Shown here one piece after another: positions 18,121 through 37,102 of a stretch of DNA of 37,890 bases. Source of the stretch: Chrysiogenia bacterium (GTDB lineage: Bacteria > JAGRBM01); NCBI GenBank assembly GCA_020434085.1, contig JAGRBM010000343.1:1-37890 (forward strand), read 5' to 3'. The first letter of the stretch is position 1. Each line of letters begins with the position of its first letter. Under the pieces are notes generated by a model, which made no database searches, was not told the DNA's origin, and was given only the letters and a program-made list of their open reading frames with translations. The translations under genes and the position numbers were made by a program.

Positions 18121-18240
18121 TGAAAGCGCGGAGTTGATCACGGCGCGCGGGCGCGTCATGCTGGACTGGTCAGGCCAGAGCCCGGGCAATCCGGCCCGGC
18201 GGCCCGCCGCGTGCGGCGCGGCAAGAGGAGCGCGAGCCCC

Positions 18241-18975
18241 ATGGCTTCACCCTTCAGAATCCGCCCCGGAGAGGGACTTCGGGCGCTGCGACGTTCGATG
18301 CGCGATCCCGACGATACCGGGCAGGTGGGAGTGGTCGTGCGCGCGTTTCAGGGCAAATCCCCCCAGCGGATTGCCCGCCGGGCCCGCCGCACCAGAGAGG
18401 GCCGGCGCCTGCTGCGCGAAAAGCCGGACCTGCTGGCTGCCCTGCGCAACCGCGAGTGGCTCGCCTCCCTTCCGGAAAAGAGCCTGGGCCGCGCCTATCT
18501 CGACTTCGTGGTGCGGTACAAGATCTCGGCGGACGGGCTGATGGACGCGTTGGCAGAGCCGGGCGCCCGGAGCGACTACGAGCGTCACCTCTCCGAAGAC
18601 GAGCTCTTCCTCAACCAGTGGGCGGGCCTGACGCACGACCTGTTCCACGTGGTCACCGGTTACGAAACCGATCTCATCGGCGAGGTGGCCGTGCTGAACT
18701 TTACCCTCGCCCAGAGCAGAAACCCCGGCCTGGGCGTGCTGCTCATACCACCCAACGTGCTCACGCCGATCTTCGCCCCCCGACACGCGGCAATCATCTG
18801 GAAAGCCGCGCTCCGCGGCCTGCGTGCCAGGTGGTTCCTCGTGCAGAACTGGGTGGAGTTGCTCGAAGAGCCCCTTGAGGAGGTGCGCCGCAAACTGGGG
18901 GTCGGCCCGCCGCCCGGCTACGACCAGTTTTTCAGCCCGAAGTTCCGAAGAGGATTCGAGAGTGCGGCCTCCTAG
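18241..18975 (+). CDS. COQ4-family quinone biosynthesis protein
   Basis: Member of the COQ4 family, which acts in ubiquinone synthesis in mitochondria and has bacterial homologues. 244 aa with no signal peptide or clear membrane span. The family metal-binding motif His-Asp-x2-His-x11-Glu is intact as HDLFHVVTGYETDLIGE, with His132, Asp133, His136 and Glu148. The conserved downstream NFTLAQSRNPGLGVLLI and WVELLEEPLEEVRRKLG segments also fit the family. ATG 18241 is chosen because AGAGGAG lies 10 bp before it; a GTG at 18211 is in frame but less likely. Its place beside complex I suggests a role with the quinone pool. The family call is strong; its exact reaction here, and whether the quinone is ubiquinone, are inferred. 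Confidence 0.85.
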   Translation: MASPFRIRPGEGLRALRRSMRDPDDTGQVGVVVRAFQGKSPQRIARRARRTREGRRLLREKPDLLAALRNREWLASLPEKSLGRAYLDFVVRYKISADGLMDALAEPGARSDYERHLSEDELFLNQWAGLTHDLFHVVTGYETDLIGEVAVLNFTLAQSRNPGLGVLLIPPNVLTPIFAPRHAAIIWKAALRGLRARWFLVQNWVELLEEPLEEVRRKLGVGPPPGYDQFFSPKFRRGFESAAS

Positions 18976-22000: not shown

Positions 22001-22665
22001 CTGTAGGTTGAGAACGCGAAGTTAATCAGCGATCCGAAGGCATCGATGATCGAGACCTGCGCCGTGGGCGGCGGCGGGGGAAGCTCGGGAACCTCCGCGT
22101 AGCGATTGCCCCCGCGTCTGAAGGTGCTGCTCTGCGGCCAGGGATCGTGGCAGTAGCCGTGAACCATGACCGGGTCATTGGGCGAGAAGCTGTCGGGACA
22201 GTTGCTGGTGTTGCCGCGGTTGTCGAGCCACCAGTTGCAATCGTTGTAGGGCGGAGGCGCACAGTAGTAGCCGCCGCCGCAGCCGCAGTGCTGGTGAACG
22301 CTGCGCGCGCACTTGCCGCTGACCACGCTGGTGCCATCGGGGCAGTTCGGACCGGTGCTGCCGCCACCGCCGCCGCCGTGACCATATTCACCGGTGAGGA
22401 TCTTCTTGGCCGCTTCGAGGCGGGTGCGCATGGCGCCGTCCATGACCTGGAAGCTCCAGGCCATGGAACCCGAAGTATCCAGCACGAAGAGGACGTTGGG
22501 TTCCACTTCGGTGTTCGCGTAGAAGGGAACGTCCGCCTGCGCGTGTGCACGCGAGGGCAGTGCGAGCTGCCCCACGAGCATCAGTGCCAGTGCGAGCATC
22601 CCCATGCCTGCCCACCTGAGCGGGCCGCTGCCATAAAATTTCTGGCTGGTTTCCTTGGTCTCCAT
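19072..22665 (-). CDS. pilY1: PilY1-like type IV pilus tip adhesin / assembly protein
   Basis: Large exported protein of the type IV pilus, where PilY1 caps or primes the fibre, mediates adhesion and opposes retraction. 1197 aa. A signal peptide ends near residue 42 (PSRAHA|QAD). A von Willebrand A domain starts at NVLFVLDTSGSM (MIDAS Asp63-Ser65-Ser67) and continues with FIILITDGEE. The C-terminal half has the PilY1 beta-propeller, with PTMIYVGAQDGFMHGF and a calcium loop DRDLNGTVD (Asp915, Asp917, Asn919, Asp923) before GDLEGRLWKI. A second Asp-rich loop, DNDGNGIPDDC, lies in the vWA region. A Gly/Pro-bounded, cysteine-rich insert interrupts the vWA domain. ATG 22665 is chosen for its AAGGAG site and signal peptide. 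It is the last gene of the minor pilin operon. Confidence 0.93.
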   Translation of the reverse strand: METKETSQKFYGSGPLRWAGMGMLALALMLVGQLALPSRAHAQADVPFYANTEVEPNVLFVLDTSGSMAWSFQVMDGAMRTRLEAAKKILTGEYGHGGGGGGSTGPNCPDGTSVVSGKCARSVHQHCGCGGGYYCAPPPYNDCNWWLDNRGNTSNCPDSFSPNDPVMVHGYCHDPWPQSSTFRRGGNRYAEVPELPPPPPTAQVSIIDAFGSLINFAFSTYSGSYSSSSTSAAIHFPNGQGTTTFSNDDNPGLKATILSQSASGNTPTTQAMRDAGCWIMGEDNMNDALLRVATSPDPDIPFPNGGEQVTTVIYQNICPNSMNNPSIVPCPGNAGCDPAFGCRRTFIILITDGEETSGWPGSYNQPRGRKTIASALRRSTYLTGGEGGIPTYVALMAPCNINSNDNDGNGIPDDCQANNNNLVEEGDTWARYGGTDATPDPDDCTKPNNDGGESFLGTSAEALSDGLRRALACVLEGSHTRAQPTFVATSTNFAKNSEIDGYFSIQPGERWWRGELQAFSFEQINAGDLETPLWDAGKQLNARTASNPRNLYVTTREPWNPEPVSLGDATLGATAPSLDPPPVTSSQVREFKPTASSALADIVGVTTSRMSQLITFLRDEDGPANTLTFSDGSPKPWSLGPIVNSSPIIVNPPVFDFRVGAGTTYADFVRAHAEDPTMIYVGAQDGFMHGFVLSDEAKKTGLNPGGELWGFMPYEAILRMPAMDAGVIFTVDGTPSASVVRFHNDPSSDVDDSFHTVLVFSLRGGGFSTIALDITDPTTPRLLWQNTHIAMGRTFSKPNIAEYGIEWDGGQLMRRWMVAMGAGFNPTRPDGDPIVVNPIECADIIDGLCIDESGDPYEPPEPADPDDFDPGLPGVGNWVLFWDLETGRLVQNVPISDDPAINRYNSVAGDLLALDRDLNGTVDNLIFGDLEGRLWKILTYKTNPEDWWTDSIPAADPQLGLDPGKSPCVMFDQGSLAADLGISEAEARRPIFYAPAATFDCNGFVNLVWGTGDLTDPNDTQSRDFLFAINDPDGSSCGESSPDAAARDFTCDEIEDDQLKQDIEDAFPFVMEPGEKILSSPLIVNGRFFVSTFQPQGSGCSIGRGRVISGPAICCRLQPEPGANSFEVLNVSEWGDAAPPLIIGPDGQPTSVRAVQDTGAPQAQFLELERDRRILHWQNIFGVGGIKPCASPTAACN

Positions 22666-22744
22666 GACCGGACTCCTTCGCTGTCTACCCCTCGAATTCA
22701 TGTTCCTGTTCCTTGCGCGGCCCGGAGGCGGCCGCTTCACTTTC

Positions 22745-23374
22745 CTAGTAATCGACCTGCCCGCAGTTCGAGCAGGTGAAGGTGGCGATGTAGGCAATGT
22801 CGAGATACGAATCGAGCGCACCCGCATCGCACTTGGGCAGGTCGCTCACCACGATCCGCACCGGAATGCGGTTGGAGTTGCGGTTCTTTCCATCGCCCAC
22901 GGACTGGCCGACGACTTCGCCGCCGGGGGTGTAGGGCGTGGGAGCCACCAGCGCGATCGCCCGCGTGTCGGGGCACGGGTCGTAGGTATATTGCGTCGAG
23001 AGAATGCCGATGTCGGGATTGCACGAAGGCGTGGGCGTCAGGCACGTGGTGCCGTCGTCGCCGGCGGGAATGCCGGCGCCGAAATTGACCCAGCCCACCG
23101 CCGCCGAAGCGCAGGTGCCGGCGTTGATCATGCGGCTCACGCGGTCGAGCTGGTCGCGATCGAGCTGTTCGATGATGTAGCGCGCCACCTGGTCCTGGCA
23201 GCTCGAACGCCCGAGGGTGCCGGCCACGGCGCGGGCCTCGGTGTAACCGATGCCCGAACTCTGGATGGTTGCCATGGCCAGACCGGTCAGGCCGACAAGC
23301 ATGAAGACGGCGATGATCAGTGCAATGCCGCGTTCGGCCGGCGATTGCTTGCGATGTAGTTTTTCTCGAATCAC
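22745..23374 (-). CDS. pilX: PilX-like minor pilin
   Basis: Minor pilin that joins the priming complex at the pilus tip. 209 aa. The N-terminus has a short basic leader, then RGIALIIAVFMLVGLTGLAM, the PilX N-terminal hydrophobic helix, which unlike most pilins lacks the Glu at +5 of the mature protein. The rest is a soluble domain with eight or more cysteines, including TCSNCG at the end, suggesting disulfide bonds outside the cell. The start is GTG 23374, with GAGGAG 7 bp before it. It starts 20 bp after pilW and lies 79 bp before pilY1, the conserved order of this operon. Confidence 0.85.
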   Translation of the reverse strand: MIREKLHRKQSPAERGIALIIAVFMLVGLTGLAMATIQSSGIGYTEARAVAGTLGRSSCQDQVARYIIEQLDRDQLDRVSRMINAGTCASAAVGWVNFGAGIPAGDDGTTCLTPTPSCNPDIGILSTQYTYDPCPDTRAIALVAPTPYTPGGEVVGQSVGDGKNRNSNRIPVRIVVSDLPKCDAGALDSYLDIAYIATFTCSNCGQVDY

Positions 23375-23394
23375 GTTTCTGCTCCTCGCCTGAC

Positions 23395-24927
23395 TCAGCT
23401 TCCCGAAATGACGATCGGGTTGGCGTCCTTGGGCCGATACGGGGTATCGACGTTGCGGAAGGACATGAAGACCCGCGTAATGCGCGCCAGTTTGGGATGG
23501 GCCGGATCCTCCACGCTGGAGTAATCGGTCCGGTTGGCCAGCGGCTCGTAGGGCGTGCGCAGGACGCCGTCCACATACTTGCCGGCGCGAATCGACATGC
23601 GCACGCCGGTCAGGTTCGCCAGGCGCGGCACGCGCATCGCCGGATCCCAGTATCCCTGGTAACCGACGGCGCCATCGGCCACGAGCGGGTCGTGCACGCC
23701 CTGGTTGAGCTGCGGGTCAGTGGTTGCCAGGCCGATGCCCGGGCCGTTTCGGCTGAAGAAGTATTCGATCTGCATGTCCTCAACGCCATCGACCAGAACG
23801 ATCGCATGGTCGCCGAGCGAGCCGGACTTGGGCGCCTGGGTGTAGGGAATCATCGCCAGCGCGGGCTCGGTCCCCAGCGGGTTGGCCGGGTGTCCGGGCG
23901 GCGCGATGAAGAAGGTGCGCATCTGGATGAGCATCGCCGTGTAGCAGGCCGAGTAGGGATCGCTCTGGCTCTGGCGCGGCGCGCAGCCAAGCAGGGTGCC
24001 ACCGCCGGCCGTAATGCGGTCGAGGTAGTGCTGGTTCTTGGTCGCGTCAGCGAGTCCATCGCGCATGTTCAGGATTTCGGTGCCGCCGTTGATATCGGCA
24101 ATGGTCTGGAACCAGCGGTTGAGCGGGTTCTCGGGCTCTTCGACGTAATTCACATTGGCGAGGAAACCCGCCCCCGGGGTCACCACGGGCTCGACGCCGG
24201 TCACCCGAACCACGCGGTACTGGGCGCGCTGGCCGCTCTGGCCCGAGACGCCCAGTGCCGCCGATCCGGCGCCGGCCGCCGTCTTGATCAGCAGCATGCT
24301 GTTGACCCAGGTCTGATCCTGGGGATTGTCGTATCCGAAATGCCCCGGCGAGAACGGACTCGGCTTGGCCGGGTTGAAGTAACCGGTGAAGAATGGATAG
24401 GGGTTGGGGTTCGTGTTGGGGTTCGTGCTGACCGACGCATCCTGGGTGTCGTCGCGAAGCTGGAAATCCAGCTGGATCAGCCCGCCCAGGTCATCGGATT
24501 CAACGCGGGCCACGCGGCCCTGCACGCCGTAGACCACTGTGATCTCATCGGGCCCGTCCGGGCCGCCATCGGAAGTCACCAACGGGAGCGGGCCGCTCTG
24601 ACCGTAAATGGAGTCGTCGGAAATCTTGATCGGGATGATCGCATAGCCCGGCGAGCTGTGCGGAGGCTGCGGCGTAAAGAGCTGCCCGGCACCGGTCTGC
24701 TTGAGTTCGCCGCCCATGAAATCAAGCGCAATGCGCGAGGTCTGCTGCAGGTCGGCAATGAATTCCTGGTTGTGGAACGGGCCGTTGATCATCGTGCCCC
24801 AGAAACCCGAAGAGGCATAAAGGAAGATCGAGAACACCCCGAGGGCAACCATGAGTTCGATCATGGTGAAACCCGAACGCCGGCGGCGCGAGATCAGCTC
24901 TGTCTTCTTTTTCTCAAAAATGCTCAT
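23395..24927 (-). CDS. pilW: PilW-like minor pilin, unusually long
   Basis: Minor pilin of the type IV pilus priming complex. The prepilin cleavage and helix motif is SGFTMIELMVALGVFSIFLY (cut after Gly, then Phe, with Glu at +5), behind an 18-residue basic leader. At 510 aa it is well above the usual 270-370 of PilW. The extra length lies in the C-terminal globular part, which is rich in Pro, Gly and Asn (for example NPNTNPNPYPF) and probably extracellular. The start has AGGAAGG about 10 bp upstream. pilV ends 15 bp before it. Assignment to PilW rests on the motif and the gene order between pilV and pilX. Confidence 0.85.
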   Translation of the reverse strand: MSIFEKKKTELISRRRRSGFTMIELMVALGVFSIFLYASSGFWGTMINGPFHNQEFIADLQQTSRIALDFMGGELKQTGAGQLFTPQPPHSSPGYAIIPIKISDDSIYGQSGPLPLVTSDGGPDGPDEITVVYGVQGRVARVESDDLGGLIQLDFQLRDDTQDASVSTNPNTNPNPYPFFTGYFNPAKPSPFSPGHFGYDNPQDQTWVNSMLLIKTAAGAGSAALGVSGQSGQRAQYRVVRVTGVEPVVTPGAGFLANVNYVEEPENPLNRWFQTIADINGGTEILNMRDGLADATKNQHYLDRITAGGGTLLGCAPRQSQSDPYSACYTAMLIQMRTFFIAPPGHPANPLGTEPALAMIPYTQAPKSGSLGDHAIVLVDGVEDMQIEYFFSRNGPGIGLATTDPQLNQGVHDPLVADGAVGYQGYWDPAMRVPRLANLTGVRMSIRAGKYVDGVLRTPYEPLANRTDYSSVEDPAHPKLARITRVFMSFRNVDTPYRPKDANPIVISGS

Positions 24928-24942
24928 CGACGAAAAACCTTC

Positions 24943-25545
24943 CTATTGCAGCGGCCGGTCGGAGAAAATCAGGCTCAGGTCCTGGGAGGAAATGATGCTG
25001 TAGGGATTGCCGCCCGGGTCGACGTCCTCGACCAGAAACGCGCGTCCCACCAGGCGATAGGTGTTCGAGATCTCGGGGGATGCCGCCTTCCCGCGACGGG
25101 CGGGCGGGCAATAGGCGTCCAGGTCGTAGGCAACGACCACGCCCGTGCCATCGAGCACGCCGCCACCGGCAAAATCACTCACCAGTGTCGTGTAGCCCGT
25201 GCCCGTGTTGGGTGTATCCAGCGGCGTGCCGTTGATGATCGAGACATAGTCGGAGCCGCCCGCCGCAATGCAGCCGGGCCAGGCCGGGAAAACAATCCCT
25301 GCCTCGGTGCGCGGAATGCCCTGCAGGCGCTCGGTCCAGTCATTGATCAGTGCAACCATGATCGAATACGCGTTGGCCACCCGGTTGGATTTGATCGACT
25401 GCACCAGCGCCAGGGACACGGTCAGGGTGCCGATGGCGATGACGGCCATGGCGACCATCACCTCCATCAGGGTGAAGCCCGCCCGCGCATGCGTGCCGCG
25501 CTGCTTGAGCGAGTTGCGAATCCGATTGTTCGTGCCCTGTCGCAT
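24943..25545 (-). CDS. pilV: PilV-like minor pilin
   Basis: Minor pilin or pseudopilin. The 200 aa start with a 23-residue leader rich in Arg, then AGFTLMEVMVAMAVIAIGTL, the type III signal of prepilins, with Glu at +5 of the mature protein. Then comes the usual amphipathic helix, including SIMVALINDWTERLQGIPR, and a soluble domain. ATG 25545 is chosen because it lies just before the prepilin leader and has TGGAG upstream; the frame is open for 69 further codons that look unlike a leader. It is the second gene of the fimU-pilV-pilW-pilX-pilY1 series, 31 bp after the fimU-like gene. Confidence 0.87.
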   Translation of the reverse strand: MRQGTNNRIRNSLKQRGTHARAGFTLMEVMVAMAVIAIGTLTVSLALVQSIKSNRVANAYSIMVALINDWTERLQGIPRTEAGIVFPAWPGCIAAGGSDYVSIINGTPLDTPNTGTGYTTLVSDFAGGGVLDGTGVVVAYDLDAYCPPARRGKAASPEISNTYRLVGRAFLVEDVDPGGNPYSIISSQDLSLIFSDRPLQ

Positions 25546-25576
25546 GAGCGTCTCCAGATGGCTGTGACCGGCGTCT

Positions 25577-26215
25577 CTAGCGCCGGTCGATTCGGTCCCA
25601 TTCGTTGCCGTCAATGTCCCACTTGTAGAGCGAAGGCCGGCCAAGCAGGCTGACGGTAATGGCCCGCGCAAAACGCGGGTCGCCGCCCGTGCCTTCCTCG
25701 CGGAAATACACGTAGATGGCATCCTGATCGGTCGAAAGCGGAACGGTAACAAAACCCTGCGCGTTGAAGGTCACGCTATTGCCGGGTAATGCGATTCCGT
25801 CGCCATCGCCCTGCCCGTGTTCACCGGCGGCGGAAATCGGACCGGATCCAATGCCCGTGGAATTGCCGAAGTAGATGTTCTTGGGCAACTCGACGCTGGT
25901 GCAGACACTTCCGTGTTCGTAGGAATAGTATTTTTCTGAAATACCGCCGGCGGTGCAGTCGCTCGAGCCCAGGTAGACGCTCACCAGCGTCCCGTGGGAA
26001 CGTGCCTCCGCCGCCGCCAGCACCAGGGTGTTGCGAATGCCGCGGGCGCCGTCACGGACCGCCCACTCCCGGCGCACAAGCAGCCCGAAGCGCGAGGCCG
26101 CCACGGTGCTCATCACACCGATCAGGGCCACCACCACCATCACTTCGATCATGGTGAATCCGCCCCTGGCGCGCCGCCTGTGGCTGCGAGAGTCTATTTT
26201 CGCCTGAATCTGCAT
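25577..26215 (-). CDS. FimU/FimT/GspH-family minor pilin
   Basis: First gene of the minor pilin operon. 212 aa with a basic leader and the prepilin motif GGFTMIEVMVVVALIGVMST (cleavage before Phe, Glu at +5). The following region, WAVRDGARGIRNTLVLAAAE, is the typical FimT/GspH helix, and the C-terminal domain with VTFNAQGFV is the family's beta-rich part. The ATG at 26215 has AAGGGTAGG upstream. By position it corresponds to FimU; GspH of a type II secretion system is the main alternative, but PilX and PilY1 downstream argue for the pilus. A sigma-54 type promoter sequence lies 32-45 bp before the start. Confidence 0.87.
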   Translation of the reverse strand: MQIQAKIDSRSHRRRARGGFTMIEVMVVVALIGVMSTVAASRFGLLVRREWAVRDGARGIRNTLVLAAAEARSHGTLVSVYLGSSDCTAGGISEKYYSYEHGSVCTSVELPKNIYFGNSTGIGSGPISAAGEHGQGDGDGIALPGNSVTFNAQGFVTVPLSTDQDAIYVYFREEGTGGDPRFARAITVSLLGRPSLYKWDIDGNEWDRIDRR

Positions 26216-26245
26216 ACGCCTACCCTTTTGTTGCCCCAGTTCTTA

Positions 26246-26261
26246 CGCAAGGATCATTCCG
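26246..26261 (-). promoter_or_regulatory. Candidate sigma-54 (-24/-12) promoter of the minor pilin operon
   Basis: On the minus strand the sequence reads CGGAATGATCCTTGCG. The GG and GC pairs are exactly 10 bases apart, and 8 of the 11 core positions match the sigma-54 consensus TGGCACG-N4-TTGC. Transcription would start about 20 bases before the fimU-like ATG (26215). An NtrC-family activator is encoded next door, which makes the call more plausible. It has not been tested. Confidence 0.45.
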
Positions 26262-26295
26262 TCAGCCCCACAAATTACAACTAACTGATATTACA

Positions 26296-26313
26296 GGGTT
26301 TTCTTAAAAACCC
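26296..26313. terminator. Weak A/T-containing hairpin after the response regulator gene
   Basis: GGGTTTT at 26296-26302 pairs with AAAACCC at 26307-26313 around CTTA. It lies about 85 bp beyond the stop of the NtrC-family gene on the minus strand, so it may end that transcription unit before the minor pilin operon. The stem is only 7 bp and lacks a clear external U-run. Confidence 0.35.
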
Positions 26314-26397
26314 GCCCCTAAACGCGTCGCGTCAATGAACAAATCTACACATTTCAGGTTGCCGCTACACGTCCGGGATACGCAAACTTTTCGCACA

Positions 26398-27804
26398 TCA
26401 GCTCAAACCATACTCTTTGATCTTGTAAAGCAAGGCCCTGTGGGAGATTTCGAGCAGTTTTGCGGCCCTTGTGCGGTTGCCACCGGTCTGCTCCAGCGCC
26501 CGGGCGATGAGTTCGCGCTCGATCCGGGCCGTCCACTTCTTGATCGAGAGCCCCTCGCGCTCGCTGTTCGGGAAATCACCAGCAATTCCAGTGCCTTGTG
26601 TCGGCGAGAACGGCAGATCCGAAACGCCGATGCTCTCGGAGTCGTTGAGCACGATGGCGCGCTCGATCACGTTCTCCAGCTCGCGCACATTGCCGGGCCA
26701 CTCGTAGTGGCGAAGGGCGTTGCGGGCCTCGCTGGTCAGGGTCATGGCCTCCCGCCCCAGGCGCTCGGCGAAGCGGCCCACAAAGAAGTCGGCCAGCATC
26801 AGGATGTCTTCGGGGCGCTCGCGAAGCGGCGGGATCTTCAACGGCAGGACGTTGAGCCGGTAGAACAGGTCGCGGCGGAAACGTCCGTCCTCGACGTCCT
26901 TTTCCAGGTCCCGCAGCGTCGCCGCCACGATGCGCACGTCCACCTTGCGCGGGCGATTCTCGCCGACGCGCCGGATCTCTTCTTCCTGCAGGACGCGCAG
27001 CAGCTTGACCTGCAACGCCAGCGGCAGCTCGCCGATTTCGTCCAGGAAGAGCGTGCCGCCCTGGGCTTCCTCGAACAGGCCGGCCTTGTCGTGGGAGGCA
27101 TCGGTGAAGGCGCCCTTGGCGTAGCCGAAGAGCTCGCTCTCAAGCAGGTTCTCGGGAATGGCGCCGCAATTGACGGCGACGAAGGGCTTGCCCGCGCGCT
27201 CGCCGCTCGTGTGAATCGCCTTGGCAATGAGTTCCTTGCCCGTACCGCTCTCACCGGAGATCAGGACGGTCGTCTTGTAGTTGGCGATCTTGCGAACGGT
27301 ATCGAGTATCGCGCACATCGGCGCGCTCTCGGCCAGCACGTCGTCGATGCTGAAGTCATTGCCCTCGCGGTTGGAGGGCGACTCCACGCGGGTGGCCGCG
27401 CCCTTCTTCCGGCGCTCGCGCAGTTTCTCCAAAACCAGAAGGATTTCACTGCTTTTGAAGGGTTTGGAGATGTAGTCGTCGGCCCCAAGGCGCAGCGCCT
27501 CGACCGCTTGATCGTAAGTGCCGTAGGCGCTCATCATCACCACGCCGGGCTTCAAGCCGCGGGCGCGAAATTCCTTGAGAAAGCTCAGCCCGTCCATGCG
27601 GGGCATCCGGATGTCGCAGAGGATGATGTCGAGCGGCGTGGTCTCGAGCGTGTCGAGCGCGCTCTTGCCGTCGGGGACCGTGACAACTTCGTAGCCCTCG
27701 CGATGCAGCATCACCGAGAGCATGTGGCGCATGTTCTCCTCGTCGTCGACGACAAGGATCCGCTCATTGTTGCGGTCGGTCTCTGTGTGTTGCGCCCTGG
27801 CCAT
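26398..27804 (-). CDS. NtrC-family sigma-54-dependent response regulator (PilR-like by context)
   Basis: Transcription activator that works with sigma-54 RNA polymerase. 468 aa. The receiver domain (about 14-130) has the acidic pair Asp20-Asp21, the phosphorylation site Asp64 and Lys114. The AAA+ domain (about 150-385) has Walker A GESGTGKE (184-191), the sigma-54 contact loop reading GAFTDA (231-236) instead of the common GAFTGA, Walker [14 protein letters not shown] and [14 protein letters not shown] Fis-type helix-turn-helix closes the protein ([20 protein letters not shown]). Its start overlaps the kinase stop by one base. Its place just upstream of the minor pilin operon suggests it controls pilus genes, but NtrC, ZraR or AtoC-type roles cannot be excluded. 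Confidence 0.9.
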
Positions 27805-29399
27805 TACGTGCTGCTTTCGGCTCCCTCGTTGGCGGGTAGCCAGATTTCAAAAGTTGCCCCGCCCGCTCCGGGTCCGCCGGCGCTTGCCAGCCGAAGGATT
27901 CCGCCGTGGCGGATGAGCATCTGCGAGCTGACCGAGAGCCCCAGGCCGGTGCCGCGTCCGGGTTCCTTGGTCGTAAAGAACGGCTCGAACAGATGCGCGG
28001 CCGCCTCGGCCGCGATGCCCGGGCCGCTGTCGCTCACGGCGATCCGCACCGCCTCTTCACCCCGCCGGAGGGAGCTTCCCTCGCCGGGGATCAGCAGGAC
28101 TTCCTCGGGCACGCGCTCGCGCGCGACCTCGACGCGAATCTGCCCCTCGCCGCCCATGGCATCGGCGGCGTTGAGGAAGAGATTGACCAGTACCTGCTCA
28201 ATCAACCCCGGGTCGGCCAGCACCCGCACGGGCCGGGAAGAGTCGTGCTCAATGGAAATATTATGAAAGATTTTCCTACCCTTGACCAGCGAGACAATTC
28301 CTTCAATCAGCGCCTGAAGTTCGAGGTCTACCGGCTTGAAATCACGGGGTTTTGAAAGATCGAGAAGCCCCCGCACAATGTCCCCGGCGCGCTCAATTTC
28401 CCGGGCTGCGCGGGCCGCAAGATCCTTGCGGGTCTCGGGGTCGAGCGTGGGATCTTCAAGCAGTTCCAGGTAACCCGAAACAGCGCTCAGGGGGTTGCCG
28501 ACCTCGTGGGCGACGCCCGAGGCAAGCTTGCCTACGGTGGCCAGTTTCTCCGACTGGATCAGCTCATTTTGAGCCAGTTCCAGTTGGGCCAGCCGGGCCT
28601 CCAATTGCTGCTCTCGCTCGAAGAGCTGGGTGGTCATCTCCTCAAAATGCCCTTCGAGTTCGAGCATCTCGCTGGTCTTCGGCTCGGTCAGCTCGTAGTG
28701 GCGCTCGCCCTCGGTCACGCTGCGCGAGGCGGCGACCAGTTCCTTAAGTGGTTCAATAACAAGCTTGCGAACTCGGTCGGCGCCCAGCCACAGCAGGGTC
28801 ACCAGCAGGATCGCCACGTAGGCGGCCAGCAGCCACTGCCCGGCGATGGAATCCCAGAGCGGGGTGGTCGGCACGCCGACCAGCACCGCCCCCTGCGGCG
28901 GGGTGTTGGGATTAAGCCCCATCGGCACGGCCGCCCAGACCCAGGGAGGCTCGTCGAAGCCAAAGACCGGCCGGGGCTCCAGGCTGCCCGGGCGCAGGGT
29001 CTGACGCGCCAGGTGGGCTTCCTTGAGAAGCTGGCGCATCCGATCGTTCACTTCTTCTTCGCTCTTGAAACCCGCCAGAAGCTGCAGGCCGCGACCCGGG
29101 TGGTAGACCACCACCCGCAGGCCCTTGCCCCCGTAGCCGGGCGTCTGGGTGGTGAGCCCGGCGGCAAGGCGCGCGTATTCGCGCTCGGTCTTGCCACCGC
29201 TGGCAACGGCGGCGCCCACGGCGTGAGCCACCTGCTCGGCGCGAAGCTGGTGTTCACCAAAGCGCTGGCGACCGATCAGGAAGCTGAGCACCAGGGTGAT
29301 GAGCACGAACTCGATCGCACCCAGCACGGCCATCTCCAGAAAGATCTCCAGCAGCAGCGGCCGGGTCTTTTGGGAGTTCTCCTGGGGATTCTCGCTCAC
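27804..29399 (-). CDS. Membrane sensor histidine kinase paired with the NtrC-family regulator
   Basis: Sensor kinase that should phosphorylate the regulator encoded directly after it. 531 aa. There is a membrane helix at about residues 16-43, a periplasmic domain up to about 190, a second helix near 190-212 and a HAMP-like linker. The coiled-coil segment then leads to the dimerisation domain with phospho-His298 in GVAHEVGNPLSAVSGYLE. ATP-binding boxes are NLFLNAADAMGG, DSGPGI and LFEPFFTTKEPGRGTGLGL. The start is GTG 29399, overlapping the prepilin peptidase stop by 4 bases. Two membrane spans differ from the classic six-span PilS, so it is closer in layout to ZraS/NtrY-like kinases. The signal sensed is unknown. 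Confidence 0.9.
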   Translation of the reverse strand: MSENPQENSQKTRPLLLEIFLEMAVLGAIEFVLITLVLSFLIGRQRFGEHQLRAEQVAHAVGAAVASGGKTEREYARLAAGLTTQTPGYGGKGLRVVVYHPGRGLQLLAGFKSEEEVNDRMRQLLKEAHLARQTLRPGSLEPRPVFGFDEPPWVWAAVPMGLNPNTPPQGAVLVGVPTTPLWDSIAGQWLLAAYVAILLVTLLWLGADRVRKLVIEPLKELVAASRSVTEGERHYELTEPKTSEMLELEGHFEEMTTQLFEREQQLEARLAQLELAQNELIQSEKLATVGKLASGVAHEVGNPLSAVSGYLELLEDPTLDPETRKDLAARAAREIERAGDIVRGLLDLSKPRDFKPVDLELQALIEGIVSLVKGRKIFHNISIEHDSSRPVRVLADPGLIEQVLVNLFLNAADAMGGEGQIRVEVARERVPEEVLLIPGEGSSLRRGEEAVRIAVSDSGPGIAAEAAAHLFEPFFTTKEPGRGTGLGLSVSSQMLIRHGGILRLASAGGPGAGGATFEIWLPANEGAESST

Positions 29400-30196
29400 A
29401 GCAGGCTCCCCACCAGGCGCAGGTAGACCTGCACGATTTCATCGGGAAAAAGCAGGGCCAGAAAGCCGCCGAGCGCCAGAAACGGCCCGAAGGGAATGGG
29501 CGTGCGAGAGCCCGAACGGCTGAGCAGCAGGTAACCGCCGCCGAGCACGCTGCCCACCACCGAGGCCACCATCACCGCCAGCAGCGTGCCCTTGAGCCCC
29601 ACGAAGGCGCCGATCATGGCCAGCAGCTTGAAGTCGCCGGTGCCCATGCCTTCATGGCCGCGCAGTTTCAAATAGGCCGCGGCGACGGCCCACAGGGTTC
29701 CGCCGCCGGCCACTGCGGCGAGCGCCGCCTCCTGGGGGGAGAGCCCGCCGGGCAGGAAGGAGATTCCCAGGGCAATGACGAGTCCGCCGATGGAGAGTTC
29801 ATCGGGAATAATCTGCTCGCGCGCGTCGATCACGGAAATAGGGATGAGCACCCAGGTGAGCAACCAGGCCGGAAAAAGCTCCCAGGTGGGGCCCAGATAG
29901 CGCCAGAGCAACCAGGTGAGCGCCGCCACGTAGAGCTCGATGAAGAAGTGGCCGGGCGAGAAATGCCCGCCGCAACGGCGGCACTTGCCGCCGGCGATCC
30001 AGTAACTAAGTAAGGGCAGGTTGTCGTACCAGGCAATGGGATGACCGCAACGAAAACAGTATGATGGCGGCTGGACGACCGAGAGGTCCTCGGGCAGGCG
30101 CGCAATGAGCACGCCGATGAAGCTTCCGATGGAAGCACCGAGCAGAACGACAAGGATGTCCCAGAACAGGGGTGCGCTTTGGAGCGTCAGTTCCAT
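29396..30196 (-). CDS. pilD: Prepilin peptidase / N-methyltransferase (PilD, A24 family)
   Basis: Inner-membrane aspartyl protease that cuts the leader from prepilins and methylates the new N-terminus. 266 aa, polytopic. The zinc-type cytoplasmic domain is visible as YCFRCGHPIAWYDNLPLLSY and GGKCRRCGG (two Cys-x2-Cys pairs). The catalytic aspartates lie in SVIDAREQIIPDELS and GMGTGDFKLLAMIGAF. The ATG at 30196 is chosen because the family N-terminus begins there (membrane helix with LLGASIGSF); the frame is open a further 66 codons, which look unrelated. No strong ribosome site is seen. It would mature the FimU, PilV and PilW products encoded downstream. Confidence 0.92.
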   Translation of the reverse strand: MELTLQSAPLFWDILVVLLGASIGSFIGVLIARLPEDLSVVQPPSYCFRCGHPIAWYDNLPLLSYWIAGGKCRRCGGHFSPGHFFIELYVAALTWLLWRYLGPTWELFPAWLLTWVLIPISVIDAREQIIPDELSIGGLVIALGISFLPGGLSPQEAALAAVAGGGTLWAVAAAYLKLRGHEGMGTGDFKLLAMIGAFVGLKGTLLAVMVASVVGSVLGGGYLLLSRSGSRTPIPFGPFLALGGFLALLFPDEIVQVYLRLVGSLL

Positions 30197-30299
30197 TGGG
30201 GTGCCAGGGGTTGAAGACCTCGGCAGCAATCTACCCCGCGGGTGCTGATCGCACAAGCCGCGAGCGCTCACCTGGAGAGATTGTAACCAAGAGCAAGAG

Positions 30300-31334
30300 A
30301 TGAGCGAGCGGTACCAGCAACTTCGAAGAGAGCGGGAGCGACGCAGGCCGCGCTGGCCCTTTGTGGTCTCGGCGCTGCTCAACCTGCTGCTCATCGCCCT
30401 GTTCGCGCGCTACGCGGCGCCCTGGCTGGCCTCGCTCCGCGAGCCCACCCCGCGCCCCGATGACCTCCAGTGGGTGGACCTCGCCCCCCTGCCCCCGCAG
30501 AGCGAAGCGTTTCAGCAGCAGTCGCCCGCGCGCGGGCAGATCATCGAGAATTCCCGGGCCAACGACATCGAGCCCGACGAGTCGCGCTACGTGGCCGACC
30601 GGGCCGCCAGTTATGACAAGCAGATGGTCGGCCCGCGCGGCGCGCCGCTTCCCGGTGAGAAGGCCCGGCAGCAGAGCGCCGAGCCCGGCAGTGATTCAGA
30701 AGACGCGCCGGGCACCCACTCGCCCGAACCCGGCAGCGAAGAAGAAGCCTCTGAGGGACAGATCGCCGATGTGCGCGCACTCTTTCCCACCGGGGAGCAA
30801 ATCGCGAAGGTCCTGGCCGAGCAGCGGCGCAAGGCGGCCGAGGCGGCCGCCAATGGCGGCGGCGGGGGCGAAAACGCCCTGCCCCTTCCGGTGGGCGAGA
30901 GTCTCGACGCCCTCGACCCGAACCTGCCCCAGGGCCAGTTCACCCTGCTCAATGCCAAGAGCTTCAAATACGCGGGCTTCATCCGCCGCGTGGGGCAGCG
31001 GGTCTTCGACCAGATGCTCGGCCAGCTCTACTCGCGCGGGTTTGCCGCCTCTATCCCGGTGGGGGCGCAGGGCTATGCCATCGTAGAGACCACCATGAAC
31101 CTGCAGGGCGAGCAGCTCTCGACGCGCATCTACCGCCTGGAGGGAGAGCCCGCCTACGCCGAGGCCGCGCGCGCGGCCATGGTGCGCGGCGCCTGGGATC
31201 TCAACCCGCCCAGCGGCGTCGAAGCCGACGACGGGCTGATCCACTGGGTGCTGATTACGCGGCTGCACCTGGTGCAGAACGACCGCTACTACGGCCCGCA
31301 GTACCGCGGCAACGCGCAGTTCGGAATTCTGTAG
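30300..31334 (+). CDS. TonB-like energy transducer / single-span periplasmic protein
   Basis: 344 aa. A very basic cytoplasmic start (RRERERRRPRWP) is followed by one membrane helix at about residues 20-41, then a long Pro/Ser/Glu-rich periplasmic linker with a Gly run near 180-187. The last 120 residues look like a TonB C-terminal domain: KSFKYAGFIRRVGQRVFDQM, AIVETTMNLQGEQLSTRIYR and an AAMVRGAWDLNPP stretch. The segment SRYVADRAASYDKQM in the linker resembles that of TonB-like proteins of deltaproteobacteria. No exbB or exbD is seen nearby. It is divergent from pilD over a 103-bp region. The TonB-type call is moderately sure; its receptor partner is unknown. Confidence 0.65.
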   Translation: MSERYQQLRRERERRRPRWPFVVSALLNLLLIALFARYAAPWLASLREPTPRPDDLQWVDLAPLPPQSEAFQQQSPARGQIIENSRANDIEPDESRYVADRAASYDKQMVGPRGAPLPGEKARQQSAEPGSDSEDAPGTHSPEPGSEEEASEGQIADVRALFPTGEQIAKVLAEQRRKAAEAAANGGGGGENALPLPVGESLDALDPNLPQGQFTLLNAKSFKYAGFIRRVGQRVFDQMLGQLYSRGFAASIPVGAQGYAIVETTMNLQGEQLSTRIYRLEGEPAYAEAARAAMVRGAWDLNPPSGVEADDGLIHWVLITRLHLVQNDRYYGPQYRGNAQFGIL

Positions 31335-31531: not shown

Positions 31532-32539
31532 TCACCAGACGGCCAGGTGGTCCTCGACCACGCCGAAGACGTTGCCGAGTTCGATGGGGGCTTCGCCCGG
31601 CACTTTGATGGTTCCGGCGAAGGTCCCGTAGGGCTGGATGAAATCGCTGCGAATCACCCCGAGGTTCAGGCGCTGCTTGCGCGCGCCCAGCGGCGTGAAG
31701 TCGAGGCTCAGCCAGTCGCCGCCCACCGAGCGCAGGCGCCAGGGCTCGCGCGAGGGATTCTTCGGCATTTCAAAGCGCACGCCTTCAAGCGCATAGAGCT
31801 TCCCGTCGACAAAGAGCACGTTTTCCTGGGAGACGCCCGCGGCGTTGTCGTAGACATCGGCCGAGAGGTTGAGCCCGACGCGCCGGCCATCGACCGCATG
31901 GCCGGAAAAGGCCGCCCAGTTCCACTTGGTCGTGCGGCGCGCGGCCGAGCGGGTCCAGTCGCTGGCGCCAAGTGCGTTGCCGAGATCCACGTCGCGCCCG
32001 CCGAGCCGGAGCGCGCCGCCCGCGGGGAGGCCCGCGGCCTTGTGCGTGTAGGCGGCGCGGTCCTTTTCAAGCTCAAAGAGCAGGCCCAGGCTCTCGCCCT
32101 CGGGCTTTACGAAAAACTCGCCTTCGAGCCGCTCATCGCCCAGCGGCAGGTCGAGCTCGGCGCGCCACTGCCCGGGCTCCGAAGAGACACGCACCCGCGC
32201 CCCCTTGGCATCCCAGAGGGTGACGCCCTCGGTGGAACTCTTTGCAAAGCTCAAACCCCTGCCCCCCGGAGAGAGGGCCTCGAACTCGCGCTTGTTTGCC
32301 GGATCTTCTCGATCGATCACGTAGGCAAAGATATTGGCGACGTAGCCGAGTTGCACGAGGGCAAAGGCGACGAACCAGCGGTCGGTCGTCGCCGAGAGGT
32401 AGTGCCATTCCTTGAGCCGCATGCGGCCCATGACGCCGGGGACGCTGACATTGGGATCGGCAATGGGGCCCGGGTAGCGGCCGTACTGGTAGGCCCCGGC
32501 CTGCCGCGCAGCAGGCGGGGCGCTGACTTCAATCTTCAC
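31532..32539 (-). CDS. DUF2804 family protein
   Basis: 335 aa, close to the usual length of DUF2804 proteins, whose function is not known. The family-like segment RLKEWHYLSATTDRWFVAFA leads into a hydrophobic stretch LVQLGYVANIFAYV. The remaining two thirds are beta-rich with many Gly and charged residues, including TKWNWAAFSGHAVDGRRVG and an ending GNVFGVVEDHLAVW. No signal peptide is seen. The start is GTG 32539, three bases after the stop of the large exported protein gene, with GGCGGAAA upstream, so the two are probably co-translated. The pairing may point to a shared pathway; nothing in the sequence gives a reaction. Confidence 0.8.
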   Translation of the reverse strand: MKIEVSAPPAARQAGAYQYGRYPGPIADPNVSVPGVMGRMRLKEWHYLSATTDRWFVAFALVQLGYVANIFAYVIDREDPANKREFEALSPGGRGLSFAKSSTEGVTLWDAKGARVRVSSEPGQWRAELDLPLGDERLEGEFFVKPEGESLGLLFELEKDRAAYTHKAAGLPAGGALRLGGRDVDLGNALGASDWTRSAARRTTKWNWAAFSGHAVDGRRVGLNLSADVYDNAAGVSQENVLFVDGKLYALEGVRFEMPKNPSREPWRLRSVGGDWLSLDFTPLGARKQRLNLGVIRSDFIQPYGTFAGTIKVPGEAPIELGNVFGVVEDHLAVW

Positions 32540-32542
32540 TGC

Positions 32543-35500
32543 CTAGTTTCCGCCCGCGGGCGCCTTGCTCGTCTTCTTGTGCGATCCCCACTTGCGAAGC
32601 GATTCGTCGAGCACGTCGGCGAAGGCTTCGAGCAGGTCGGGCTCACGCGCGGGATTGTAGTAACCTAGCTCGTAGGCCTTCTCGTGCGAGTTGGCGAGCG
32701 CGCGGGTCACGTGCTCGCGCAGCAGCACGTGGAAGCCGCGCATGACATCGTTCATGTAGAGTTCGCGCGCGCCTTTGTCCTTGGACTCCATAAAGATGCG
32801 CGCGGCCGGCACCATGCGTTCCATGTAGCTGTTCTTGCCATCGAGCTCCATGGCCTTGAAGGGATAGCCCATCAGCTTTCTGAGCACCGGACGGTTCTTG
32901 TCCGAGAGCACTTCCTTGAACTGGGTGCGCCGCTCGATGATGACCGGCGCCGAGGTTTTCAGAATTCCATAGAGCAGCGGATCGAGCGCAGCCCAGTCAT
33001 TCCGGTTGGGACGAAGCACATTGGCGAGCGATTCCTCGAGTACGAAGTCGTAGCGCTGGTCGAGCTTGGCCCACTGCTGAAGCGTAAAGAGAAGCTCGGT
33101 GGCCAGACCCTTGTCGAGCACGTCGGCAATCATGGCATTGAAGGCGACCGCCAGTTCCGGCGGAGCATCCAGATACGTGCGCGCGTGCTTGAGCAGGTAG
33201 CGGAAGTCGCCGTTCTTGGGATTGTCGTCGAGCATCTTGGCAAAGGCCCGCGTGGCCTTCGCGTTCTTGTCACAGCCGTACATTTCGCCGGCCAGGTTGT
33301 CGAGTTCATGCAGGTCGAGTCCCGGCGGCGGGTTGTTGAGCACGTCGGCAACGAAGTTGAGCTGGGTCTGGATGAGCTGGCGCATTTCGTCCTGCGAGAT
33401 GATGCGGTCGAGCAGCAGGAGGAACGGACGCACCAGCCGGTGGCGGCGGTTGGGCGGCTCGCGCAGGGTGAACGCGACGAAGTCCAGGAACACGCTGAGC
33501 GCCTTGCGCTTGGGATTGGAACTCAGCCGCGCGTCGCGCACGGCGCGGAGCACGGCGATGGAGTTCTCAATCACACCCTGCTCGAACACGGCGTTCATGG
33601 TCGGGTCAAAGAGGCCCGAAGCGCCCGAGAGATAGAGCGAGTGGATCATCTCGACGAGGTAGGGCGCGTCGCCGCGCTTGGCCAGCGCCTGAATCATGGT
33701 GAACGCTTCTTCGAGGGGCGTTTCCTTGAGCAGCGCGCGGATCGGCGCGGGATCGGCCACGAGTTCCGAGAGAATATCGGGCTCGCAGAAGAGGTCGCCG
33801 ATGGCCGCAGTTTTCGCCAGGAAGTCGAACAGGCCCGCCATCTTGGCAGCGGTGCTGGCCTCCAACTCGGCCGAGGCTTCGAAGGCATCGATGGCGATGT
33901 TCTTCGAGGGGAACTTGATGGGCATGCCCGGCATGTTGATGGGCACGACGATGTCGGTGAATGCAATGGGCATACCGCACGAGAGCGGCGAGTAGGCGAT
34001 GTCCATCAGCTTGAGCAGGCGCTGATTGTCCGAGGGGAACTTGCGGCCGCGGGCGAGCACCTTCGTGCCGTCGGCCAGGGTATGGTACTTGAACACTTCA
34101 CCAAAGCGCAGGCGCTGTTCCTGGGTGAGCTTGTCCAGGAAGATGTCGAGGACGATTTCGAGGGAGTTCTCCCCGTTCTTGTCACGCTGGAGAAGACGCT
34201 CCACCCCGTCGAGCATGGTCTCGGCATAGTTCTGCTGGGGATGGATCTCGTCCTTTTCAAAGAACCCGTCGAGGGCGATGAGCAGGCTGTAGGTCACCGG
34301 CCTGCCCTCGTTGTCCTTGGCAGCGAGCACCTTCCCAAGGTCGGTCATCGCCTTGTCGAAGACTTCCTTTTCCGAGAGCACCTGGAAGGCCTCGTGCATC
34401 TGGGGAATCTCTTCGTAGTTCATCAGGATCGAGGCCGAGTCGAGCACGTCGTTCTCAAGGGCGCTCTTGGCAATCTTCAGAATTCCCTGGGTGATCTTGA
34501 AGCGGCGATCGTCCTTGAGATACTCGTGAATGAAGACGGCCCAGCTCTTGAGCAGGCGGTCATAGGGGCGGTCCTTTTGTTCATCGAGGATGCAGGTGAG
34601 CGGCTCATAGGCCGTCTGCACCAGGTTGGATCCGCCGCGGAACTCGATGGCTTCATAGAAACCGCGCGGCCCCAGTTTGTGGGCGCCGGTGCCCACGATC
34701 TTTGCCTGGTAGTTGATGAGTCCCTCGAAATCCTTTTTGGGCTGGTCGAAGAAGGTTTCGAGCAGTTCGAGCGGGATGTCGAAAAAATCTTCCTTGGTCT
34801 TGGGATCGAGATCGAGCTCGAGTTTGGGCAGGTTCACCAGCGCGGCGAACATCTGACGCTGCTTGGGATAGCGCGCGAACACGTCGAGGATCCAGACGAT
34901 GTCGGTGAGCAGGGAGTGCCCGTTCTTGTCGGGCTCGGAAATCACCTCGGCCATGGCGTCGGTCATCTGCCAGGCGCCCAGGCGATTGGCCTCTGAAATC
35001 ACTTCGGCGAAGTCGCGGAACACGCCCTGCCGGGCCAGGTCGCGCGAAGCCTCGTAGAAGGTGCGCAGCTCGTCCATCTCGTAGGGCTCGGGATAGATCG
35101 ACTCGAACGCCTTGAACGCGCGCACGATATCGGGATCGGTCGCGCGCGGGGGCTTGGCGCTCATGTCTTCTGAAATGGCGTCGTAGGTGGCGGTGAGTTC
35201 CTTCCACGCCCCGGCGCGCTTGAGATCCGCGATGAGCGGATCTACCAGGCCGCGGCTTCGCCGGTTGTCGGCGCGCCACTGTTTCTCCAGCTCGGCCATG
35301 TAGCTCTTGAGGTAGTTGCGCTCGAGGTCGAAGTGGATCTCCTCAACCGCCTTGCGGCCGGCCCGGTCGGCGGCCGCCACGCGTAGGGTCATCTTGCCCG
35401 AACCGTGCTTGCGGTAATCCAGGGTTCCCCCGCTCTTGAAACGCTTGCCGTTGATGGTGATCTCCACCGAGTTGCGCACCAGGCTGGGGTCTTCCACGTC

Positions 35501-36796
35501 CACTTTGATCGTGGTGCGCTCGACGCTGATTCCCTCACTGATGCCCTCGATGCGGATCGTCGGTTCGCGCAGATCGGTGACAACCTTGAGCTTCTGGTCG
35601 GCGGTGTTACCGGCATCGTCGTGGATGCGGGCGATAAGCTCATGGGTGCCGTCGGGCACGTCCATGACCTTGACGGGGAACGCAGTCTCACGGGTTGCCA
35701 GATCGCCCTTCGCAATGCTCTCACCATCGAGCAGCACCTCGAGTTTCGCGGGCGTCTTGCTCGCCAGCACCTGCAGATTGAGCGGCAGCTCGCTCACAAC
35801 CACGCCGGACTTGGGCGAGGTCACCGTGATGCCCGGCCTGGTGTTGTCGATCTTCACCACGCGCTGCACGCGCGTTTCGTTGCCGACCTTGTCGACGGCA
35901 TAGAAATCGAAGCGCCCTTCGAGCCCCTCGATGGGCATGTCCATGGCGAACTTGCCTTCGGCATCGACGGTGACGGGTTTGCCGTTGATCTCGAACTTGG
36001 CCGCCGGATCGTCGATGGTTCCCTCCAGCGTGATGAGCGGCTGGTTGGTCACCGTGTCCACAGGCGGATAGGTGATGTCGAGCTTTGGCGCGGTGACGTC
36101 GCGAAGCACCGTGGCCGTGGTGCGCCAGATGCGGTCTTCTTCATCGCGGCCGGTGAGTACCAGGATGTTCTCGCCGTCTTTGAGAATCACGCCTTTGGCG
36201 GAAAAGCGCGGGCTCTCCTCGCCTTCGCGCACGGCGGCGATGCCGTTGATCTGCAGGTTTTCGATATCGAGCGCCGCTTCGCCCTCGACCGTGGCCCAGC
36301 GCTCACGCATATAGTCGCCATCGCTCGGGCTCTTGAGCGTGATCTTGGACGCCTGCTCGGTGCGCGTGATCTCGAAGCGCTCTTCGTTGCTCTTGGTGCC
36401 TTCGGTCGCCGTGATGACGATCTCGTTGACGCCCAGTTTGAGCGGCACCTTCTTCATGTAGAAGTTGCCCGAACGCTCTTCGGGTCCCTCGACCTCGAAG
36501 ATCTCGCCGTTTACGAAGGCGCGCAGCGTCGCATTGCGCGAGCGGATGCGCCCCTGCACTTCCATGCTCTCGTCGGTGGTCAGGATCTCGGGGTCGCTGA
36601 ATTCCCAGGTGCGGCGCTGCAGGTCGGGCTGAATGAGCTCGATGGCGAGCTCTTTCGAATAGCGAATGTCGCGGATGCCCAGGTAAGCGGGTCCCTTGCG
36701 GCTGCCGCCGCAGTTCATCGCGCTGGGAATGAGCACCAGCGCCACCACGGCAATGCGCAACCAACCCCAGACGTATTTGCCAAGGTGTCGTCTCAT
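32543..36796 (-). CDS. Very large exported protein: Ig-like repeats plus a long helical domain (unknown function)
   Basis: I do not recognise the family of this 1417-aa protein. A basic start and hydrophobic segment (residues 9-27) end in IPSAMNCGG; Cys29 suggests a lipoprotein, but Asn at -1 departs from the usual lipobox. Residues about 60-488 hold roughly five Ig-like beta domains, at about 60-150, 153-235, 238-318, 320-408 and 411-488. They repeat phrases such as KLGVNEIVITA, DGENILVLTGRDE, DFYAVDKVGNET and ELIARIHDDAGNT, like glucodextranase-B or cadherin-like modules. Residues 489-1417 are mostly helical, charged and without membrane spans, perhaps a solenoid. ATG 36796 follows AGAGGAA. 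DUF2804 starts 3 bp after its stop. Confidence 0.85.
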   Translation of the reverse strand: MRRHLGKYVWGWLRIAVVALVLIPSAMNCGGSRKGPAYLGIRDIRYSKELAIELIQPDLQRRTWEFSDPEILTTDESMEVQGRIRSRNATLRAFVNGEIFEVEGPEERSGNFYMKKVPLKLGVNEIVITATEGTKSNEERFEITRTEQASKITLKSPSDGDYMRERWATVEGEAALDIENLQINGIAAVREGEESPRFSAKGVILKDGENILVLTGRDEEDRIWRTTATVLRDVTAPKLDITYPPVDTVTNQPLITLEGTIDDPAAKFEINGKPVTVDAEGKFAMDMPIEGLEGRFDFYAVDKVGNETRVQRVVKIDNTRPGITVTSPKSGVVVSELPLNLQVLASKTPAKLEVLLDGESIAKGDLATRETAFPVKVMDVPDGTHELIARIHDDAGNTADQKLKVVTDLREPTIRIEGISEGISVERTTIKVDVEDPSLVRNSVEITINGKRFKSGGTLDYRKHGSGKMTLRVAAADRAGRKAVEEIHFDLERNYLKSYMAELEKQWRADNRRSRGLVDPLIADLKRAGAWKELTATYDAISEDMSAKPPRATDPDIVRAFKAFESIYPEPYEMDELRTFYEASRDLARQGVFRDFAEVISEANRLGAWQMTDAMAEVISEPDKNGHSLLTDIVWILDVFARYPKQRQMFAALVNLPKLELDLDPKTKEDFFDIPLELLETFFDQPKKDFEGLINYQAKIVGTGAHKLGPRGFYEAIEFRGGSNLVQTAYEPLTCILDEQKDRPYDRLLKSWAVFIHEYLKDDRRFKITQGILKIAKSALENDVLDSASILMNYEEIPQMHEAFQVLSEKEVFDKAMTDLGKVLAAKDNEGRPVTYSLLIALDGFFEKDEIHPQQNYAETMLDGVERLLQRDKNGENSLEIVLDIFLDKLTQEQRLRFGEVFKYHTLADGTKVLARGRKFPSDNQRLLKLMDIAYSPLSCGMPIAFTDIVVPINMPGMPIKFPSKNIAIDAFEASAELEASTAAKMAGLFDFLAKTAAIGDLFCEPDILSELVADPAPIRALLKETPLEEAFTMIQALAKRGDAPYLVEMIHSLYLSGASGLFDPTMNAVFEQGVIENSIAVLRAVRDARLSSNPKRKALSVFLDFVAFTLREPPNRRHRLVRPFLLLLDRIISQDEMRQLIQTQLNFVADVLNNPPPGLDLHELDNLAGEMYGCDKNAKATRAFAKMLDDNPKNGDFRYLLKHARTYLDAPPELAVAFNAMIADVLDKGLATELLFTLQQWAKLDQRYDFVLEESLANVLRPNRNDWAALDPLLYGILKTSAPVIIERRTQFKEVLSDKNRPVLRKLMGYPFKAMELDGKNSYMERMVPAARIFMESKDKGARELYMNDVMRGFHVLLREHVTRALANSHEKAYELGYYNPAREPDLLEAFADVLDESLRKWGSHKKTSKAPAGGN

Positions 36797-36936
36797 ATTG
36801 TTCCTCTGACTCGGCTCGTCTTGCATGCATCGCGGCACGCGCCAGCCCAAGCCCCCACGGCCCGCTGCGCGCGCGTTTCTTCCGCGTCACTGATGAGAGG
36901 GACAAACGCCCCCGTATTCAGCTTCTCCGGGGGCAA

Positions 36937-36966
36937 AGTATGCCGGATTGCGCCATTGCGGGTCAA
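36937..36966 (-). promoter_or_regulatory. Candidate sigma-70 promoter of the large exported protein gene
   Basis: On the minus strand TTGACC (36961-36966) and CATACT (36937-36942) are 18 bases apart, matching 5 of 6 and 4 of 6 consensus positions. Transcription would start near 36930, giving a leader of about 130 bases. A 7-bp stem (36908-36914 with 36928-36934) sits at the predicted 5' end. Confidence 0.4.
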
Positions 36967-37045: not shown

Positions 37046-37071
37046 AAAAAGCCCGCCGGGGTGCGGCGGGC
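37046..37071 (-). terminator. Intrinsic terminator of the atp operon
   Basis: GCCCGCCG (37051-37058) pairs perfectly with CGGCGGGC (37064-37071) around a 5-base loop. Reading the minus strand, the stem is followed by TTTTT (37050-37046). It lies about 31 bp after the atpC stop, the expected place for the end of the ATP synthase operon. Confidence 0.9.
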
Positions 37072-37102
37072 CTCTTCGTAAAGTCAGCGAAATGTTTGTA
37101 AA

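Follow-up and report, generated by a model that had tools for sequence, protein, structure and literature searches.

A probable envelope lipoprotein with an unplaced helical domain, encoded next to a DUF2804 gene in a Chrysiogenia bacterium

The AttH/CrtC double-calycin fold serves the binding or conversion of hydrophobic molecules; for the DUF2804 family (PF10974) we know of no biochemical function. NE1406, of the AttH-like type, is described as lipocalin-like with two barrels and has been proposed to act in lipid metabolism (PMC2954199), and the only paper naming DUF2804 that was found in our literature search places the P. aeruginosa gene PA3342 in the GliR glycerolipid regulon, with no function assigned (PMC8151288). 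Two further groups of described proteins come close to the locus reported here, namely the bacterial Ig-like surface proteins (with modules of the Glucodextran_B, Big_7, Big_13 or OmpL47 type) and the TPR/PPR alpha-solenoids. The larger of our two proteins carries modules of the first group in about 430 N-terminal residues, but joins them to a 930-aa helical body without known family; the weak matches of this body fall on the second group, but it has no significant single stretch, no detectable repeat and no Pfam TPR/PPR match. The smaller protein is a full member of PF10974, as is PA3342, but its branch has to date been met in this phylum alone (a protein of genome G349 being a distant neighbour, support 91), and it shares its overall fold with the AttH/CrtC/DUF2006 double calycins (Foldseek probability 1.00, E 8e-10 to 1e-6), but with 8-14% identity and a TM of about 0.5, i.e. 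as a fold-level match only.

The window, as we call the whole stretch of 37,890 nucleotides analysed, belongs to a fragmented genome (G000; 4.18 Mb in 628 contigs). Both genes lie on its minus strand exactly where the initial annotation had put them, the larger one upstream: an intact 1417-codon ORF at 32543..36796 and, after a gap of 3 bp (tag-gca-gtg), the intact 335-aa DUF2804 gene with a GTG start at 31532..32539. The ATG at 36796, with a GAGGA ribosome-binding sequence directly upstream, was preferred as the start of the large gene over the alternative opening of the frame, TTG at 36850, because it suits the signal peptide better. The coding status of the two ORFs is secure since the first has a full-length ortholog in a second genome, G001 (38% identical over 1413 residues), and the second matches PF10974 at E=1.8e-60. 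The end of the ATP synthase operon (atpC, PF02823) lies upstream of the large gene, separated from it by a terminator-like hairpin with a T run (37046..37076, minus strand; -21.6 kcal/mol, z = -2.96) that was absent from the pattern-scan listing. Pattern scanning gave, as weak evidence, a possible sigma-70-like promoter (TTGACC-18-CATACT; 36937..36966, minus strand), the number of promoter-like sites being 1 found against 0.9 expected by chance. Given the 3-bp gap and the hairpin after atpC, co-transcription of the pair, as initially proposed, is plausible here, although the second genome arranges the two genes differently, as detailed below. Elsewhere in the window, a Coq4 family gene (18211-18975, plus strand; PF05019, E=1.5e-19) lies close to nuo genes, and 19072-30394 on the minus strand reads as a type IV pilus-like cluster of PilY1-like and prepilin-like proteins, a sigma-54 regulator and a sensor kinase, accompanied by a prepilin peptidase (PF06750/PF01478). 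A plus-strand gene at 30300-31334 encodes a 344-aa protein with a single N-terminal membrane segment and, by eye, a TonB-like layout; Pfam gave no match to it at E 1e-5.

Export of the large protein by a signal peptide is strongly indicated. Residues 1-28 (36713..36796, minus strand) contain a hydrophobic segment that begins at residue 9 (KD15 2.27) and end before Cys29, a cysteine at the lipobox position; a second transmembrane segment is not apparent (maximum KD19 1.36 after residue 45). The lipobox had been called odd, and it is: measured against the consensus used ([LVI][ASTVI][GAS]C) it reads A-M-N-C, with Met at -2 and Asn at -1, so that lipidation of the window protein itself is doubtful. 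The same site is near consensus both in the ortholog (V-G-A-C) and in a distant paralog (L-P-A-C), therefore the family most likely consists of lipoproteins. The lipoboxes of these relatives, along with two invariant cysteines (C940 and C1004) that hint at a disulfide, suggest that the large protein is probably an envelope lipoprotein, in line with the first impression of an envelope protein.

Residues 66-491 (35324..36601, minus strand) make up the tandem Ig-like modules, estimated beforehand at about five. A piecewise Pfam scan, with the modules cut apart, matched four of them: residues 66-147, 148-236 and 234-320 to Glucodextran_B (E 6.5e-4, 5.6e-4 and 1e-10, respectively) and residues 318-410 to Big_13/Big_7 (E 6.5e-5 and 3.3e-4); the fifth, residues 408-491, matched Ig-type models weakly (E 0.08-0.2). 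The estimate thus stands, with a weak fifth member. Leukocidin-like PDB matches of the Ig part (E 0.34) were dismissed as noise. The sole other G000 protein weakly similar to this part is a lipoprotein built of Ig-like repeats (L054; G000:C593:3541-16161, plus strand), whose ORF, of at least 4207 aa, runs off the contig.

The C-terminal half, residues 492-1417 (32546..35323, minus strand), is predicted to be all-helical. Over 900 helical residues had been anticipated, and the near helix-only secondary structure bears this out at the level of prediction: every secondary-structure element listed for the low-confidence AlphaFold model (three sequences) is a helix, the model itself being unreliable (mean pLDDT 35.5, pTM 0.24). 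Profile searches with this half found nothing in Pfam up to E=10 and nothing above noise in NCBIfam; a phage-defence reading was rejected, as PADLOC gave no match worth noting. The statement that the architecture matches no known family therefore stands across Pfam, NCBIfam and PADLOC. The weak PDB matches of the helical half, like its best chance match in other genomes, point mainly to TPR/PPR proteins. Matches of its core to designer PPR proteins in a PDB profile search (best E 1.4e-7) were set aside, since individual stretches all fall short and artificial-repeat targets sum weak matches. Internal repeats scored 12.8 against a mean of 6.9 in column-shuffled controls (sd 4.1, maximum 17.6), which is not significant and counts against a regular solenoid, since such a fold might show a repeat. 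An alpha-solenoid is nonetheless the likeliest guess.

Conservation peaks within this half at residues 920-1060 (33617..34039, minus strand), a core of the form SPLxCGxPxxFT...NxPGxPxxFP...FEAS...FCEP that holds the invariant C940 and C1004. Its identity to the window protein is 58% in the ortholog and 34% in the paralog, with 38 of the 141 columns invariant, and around residues 912-971 the values rise to 60% and 42%. All four cysteines of the mature protein are kept in the ortholog, and the paralog keeps C940 and C1004 only; the counterparts of C735 and C1175 are missing together, which suggests two separate disulfides, putatively C940-C1004 and C735-C1175.

G001 is the only other genome of the phylum in the searched set and belongs with G000 to one order. 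It encodes both relatives, the ortholog at L008:8864-13153 (minus strand) and the paralog at L009:3746-8416 (plus strand), the latter 23% identical and also with Ig modules. Profile searches of about 590 further genomes returned chance matches only, the best of them a TPR protein in G130, and the plasmid collection gave no match. A profile of the core motif run over 386 genomes gave E values above 0.007 for every match outside G000 and G001, and a pattern scan of 84,980 species, a collection from which close relatives of the window genome may be missing, yielded 30 matches with the helical half alone and 344 with the 3-row alignment, none of them confirmed. We conclude that the architecture of the large protein is new and lineage-restricted, its helical domain being unplaced.

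The DUF2804 protein covers profile positions 37-339 of the 339 of PF10974 with 205.4 bits, against a curated cut-off of 26.9, and keeps all residues (K167, D194, W208, E239, W267 and E329) that are invariant in a 30-sequence alignment which includes the protein itself. No export signal was seen in it. Some DUF2804 proteins of other genomes (L029, L030 and L033) start with a twin-arginine-like signal, which means that a cytosolic location does not hold for the whole family. Structure prediction, unreliable for the helical half, was confident here (pLDDT 94.7) and returned an all-beta double calycin, whose best Foldseek match was the AttH-like NE1406 (2ich, E=8e-10); kievitone hydratase (7a0q), decalin-forming pericyclases and a 25-phosphosteroid lyase (9g4c) also matched at probability 1.00, and the 22 best PDB matches all belonged to the AttH/CrtC-like double-calycin superfamily. 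The reaction of these enzymes cannot be transferred to DUF2804 because of the low identity and TM given above and because no significant sequence-profile match to AttH/CrtC/DUF2006 was obtained. The double-calycin matches, the lipid role suggested for NE1406 and the place of PA3342 in the GliR regulon do make a hydrophobic ligand likely, and the modelled protein would likely bind or convert such a molecule, in agreement with the earlier guess of an action on a lipid or small molecule.

Whether the two genes belong together is a separate matter. Their main claim to do so is that they are adjacent in both G000 and G001 with differing outer neighbours, namely atpDC and the prepilin peptidase in the window and polA and Pho-type genes in G001, and that the DUF2804 copies beside the large gene (the one in G001, L008:7895-8902, being 52% identical) group as sisters (SH-aLRT 99), separate from the remaining DUF2804 paralogs of G000 and G001. 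Adjacency that is kept while the outer neighbours changed mildly favours a link. A functional lipid-handling module, in which DUF2804 would make or modify a cytosolic hydrophobic molecule that the lipoprotein would then bind or position in the envelope, could build on this conserved adjacency and this specific paralog, as well as on the hydrophobic ligands of the fold family and the glycerolipid regulon of PA3342 (PMC8151288). However, the pair is convergent in G001, with overlapping 3' ends, which makes a shared transcript impossible there, and neither co-orientation nor an operon is kept between the two genomes. Neighbour conservation between G000 and G001 reached 5 of 35 tests (14%; three distinct gene pairs) in a small sample with simple gene calling, about 0.3 Mb of G000 against about 0.87 Mb of G001, so the retention of one adjacent pair is not remarkable. 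Furthermore, DUF2804 occurs in 31 of the 386 genomes, 29 of them without the large protein; a lack of co-occurrence, named in the initial annotation as refuting, thus holds in this direction. In the reverse direction, both genomes with the large protein (2/386) also have DUF2804, but two genomes are too few for a judgement, and being of one order they are not independent evidence. The two proteins should also differ in predicted compartment, the large one being exported and the DUF2804 protein having no export signal. The coupling into one system put forward in the initial annotation is not supported, given the tail-to-tail order, the baseline, the distribution and this mismatch in export; the two genes may form such a system, but the support is weak, and we regard the lipid-handling module as unlikely.

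The Ig modules invite another comparison, with adhesin-like surface proteins, in which function would lie with them and the helical half would serve assembly or anchoring. The Big_7 and Big_13 models matched are frequent in adhesin-type proteins, and the very long Ig-repeat lipoprotein is encoded by the same genome; nevertheless, the peak of conservation in the helical core suggests that function resides in the helical body, and there are only about five modules, so that this role appears improbable. The Glucodextran_B module type was first named from a glycosidase. Improbable, too, is a SusD-like nutrient-binding lipoprotein of the surface or periplasm, with an Ig spacer and a helical body binding polysaccharide or peptide for uptake, since the combination of a probable lipoprotein, Glucodextran_B modules and a helical body that would suit it is set against the lack of a recognised TonB-dependent transporter, glycosidase or matching ABC permease alongside in the window or G001, where the pst-like genes sit beyond DUF2804 on the other strand. 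Neither SusD nor any binding-protein family was matched either.

On the same strand in G001, DUF2804 is preceded by a Pho-type response regulator and histidine kinase and pst-like ABC genes (L008:46-8902, plus strand). Its position, about 40 bp behind these phoB/phoR-like and pst-like genes, hints at phosphate-linked expression of DUF2804. That a phylum-specific new domain family in the helical half and a dedicated DUF2804 paralog would form a module for remodelling envelope lipids, perhaps one controlled by phosphate, is very unlikely.

The account that we tentatively prefer, and which may well hold, is that the large protein is a scaffold lipoprotein of the envelope, restricted to this lineage, that the DUF2804 protein is a cytosolic double calycin for a hydrophobic ligand, and that the two are neighbours rather than a dedicated two-protein system. 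By this account, the large protein would be exported through its signal peptide and anchored through Cys29 or the corresponding residue, as the ortholog and paralog suggest, and its Ig-like stalk would span the periplasm or project from the surface. The stalk would display the helical body of about 930 residues, probably an alpha-solenoid held by the C940-C1004 and C735-C1175 disulfides, which could act as a binding scaffold for an envelope partner; the scaffold role is proposed by analogy with architecture. In the cytosol, the AttH/CrtC-type DUF2804 double calycin, with a confidently predicted fold, would bind or convert a hydrophobic molecule, and the two genes would be co-transcribed at most in the window genome.

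If both proteins did work together they would represent a new envelope lipid pathway, which the present evidence does not favour. The DUF2804 model assigns an uncharacterised but widespread family to the AttH/CrtC double-calycin superfamily and thereby offers a concrete biochemical hypothesis, the binding or conversion of hydrophobic molecules, for genes like PA3342. The helical half of the large protein, with its ortholog, its paralog and its conserved core, appears to be an undescribed domain family of one poorly sampled phylum, which can be named and then sought as genomes of the phylum accumulate.
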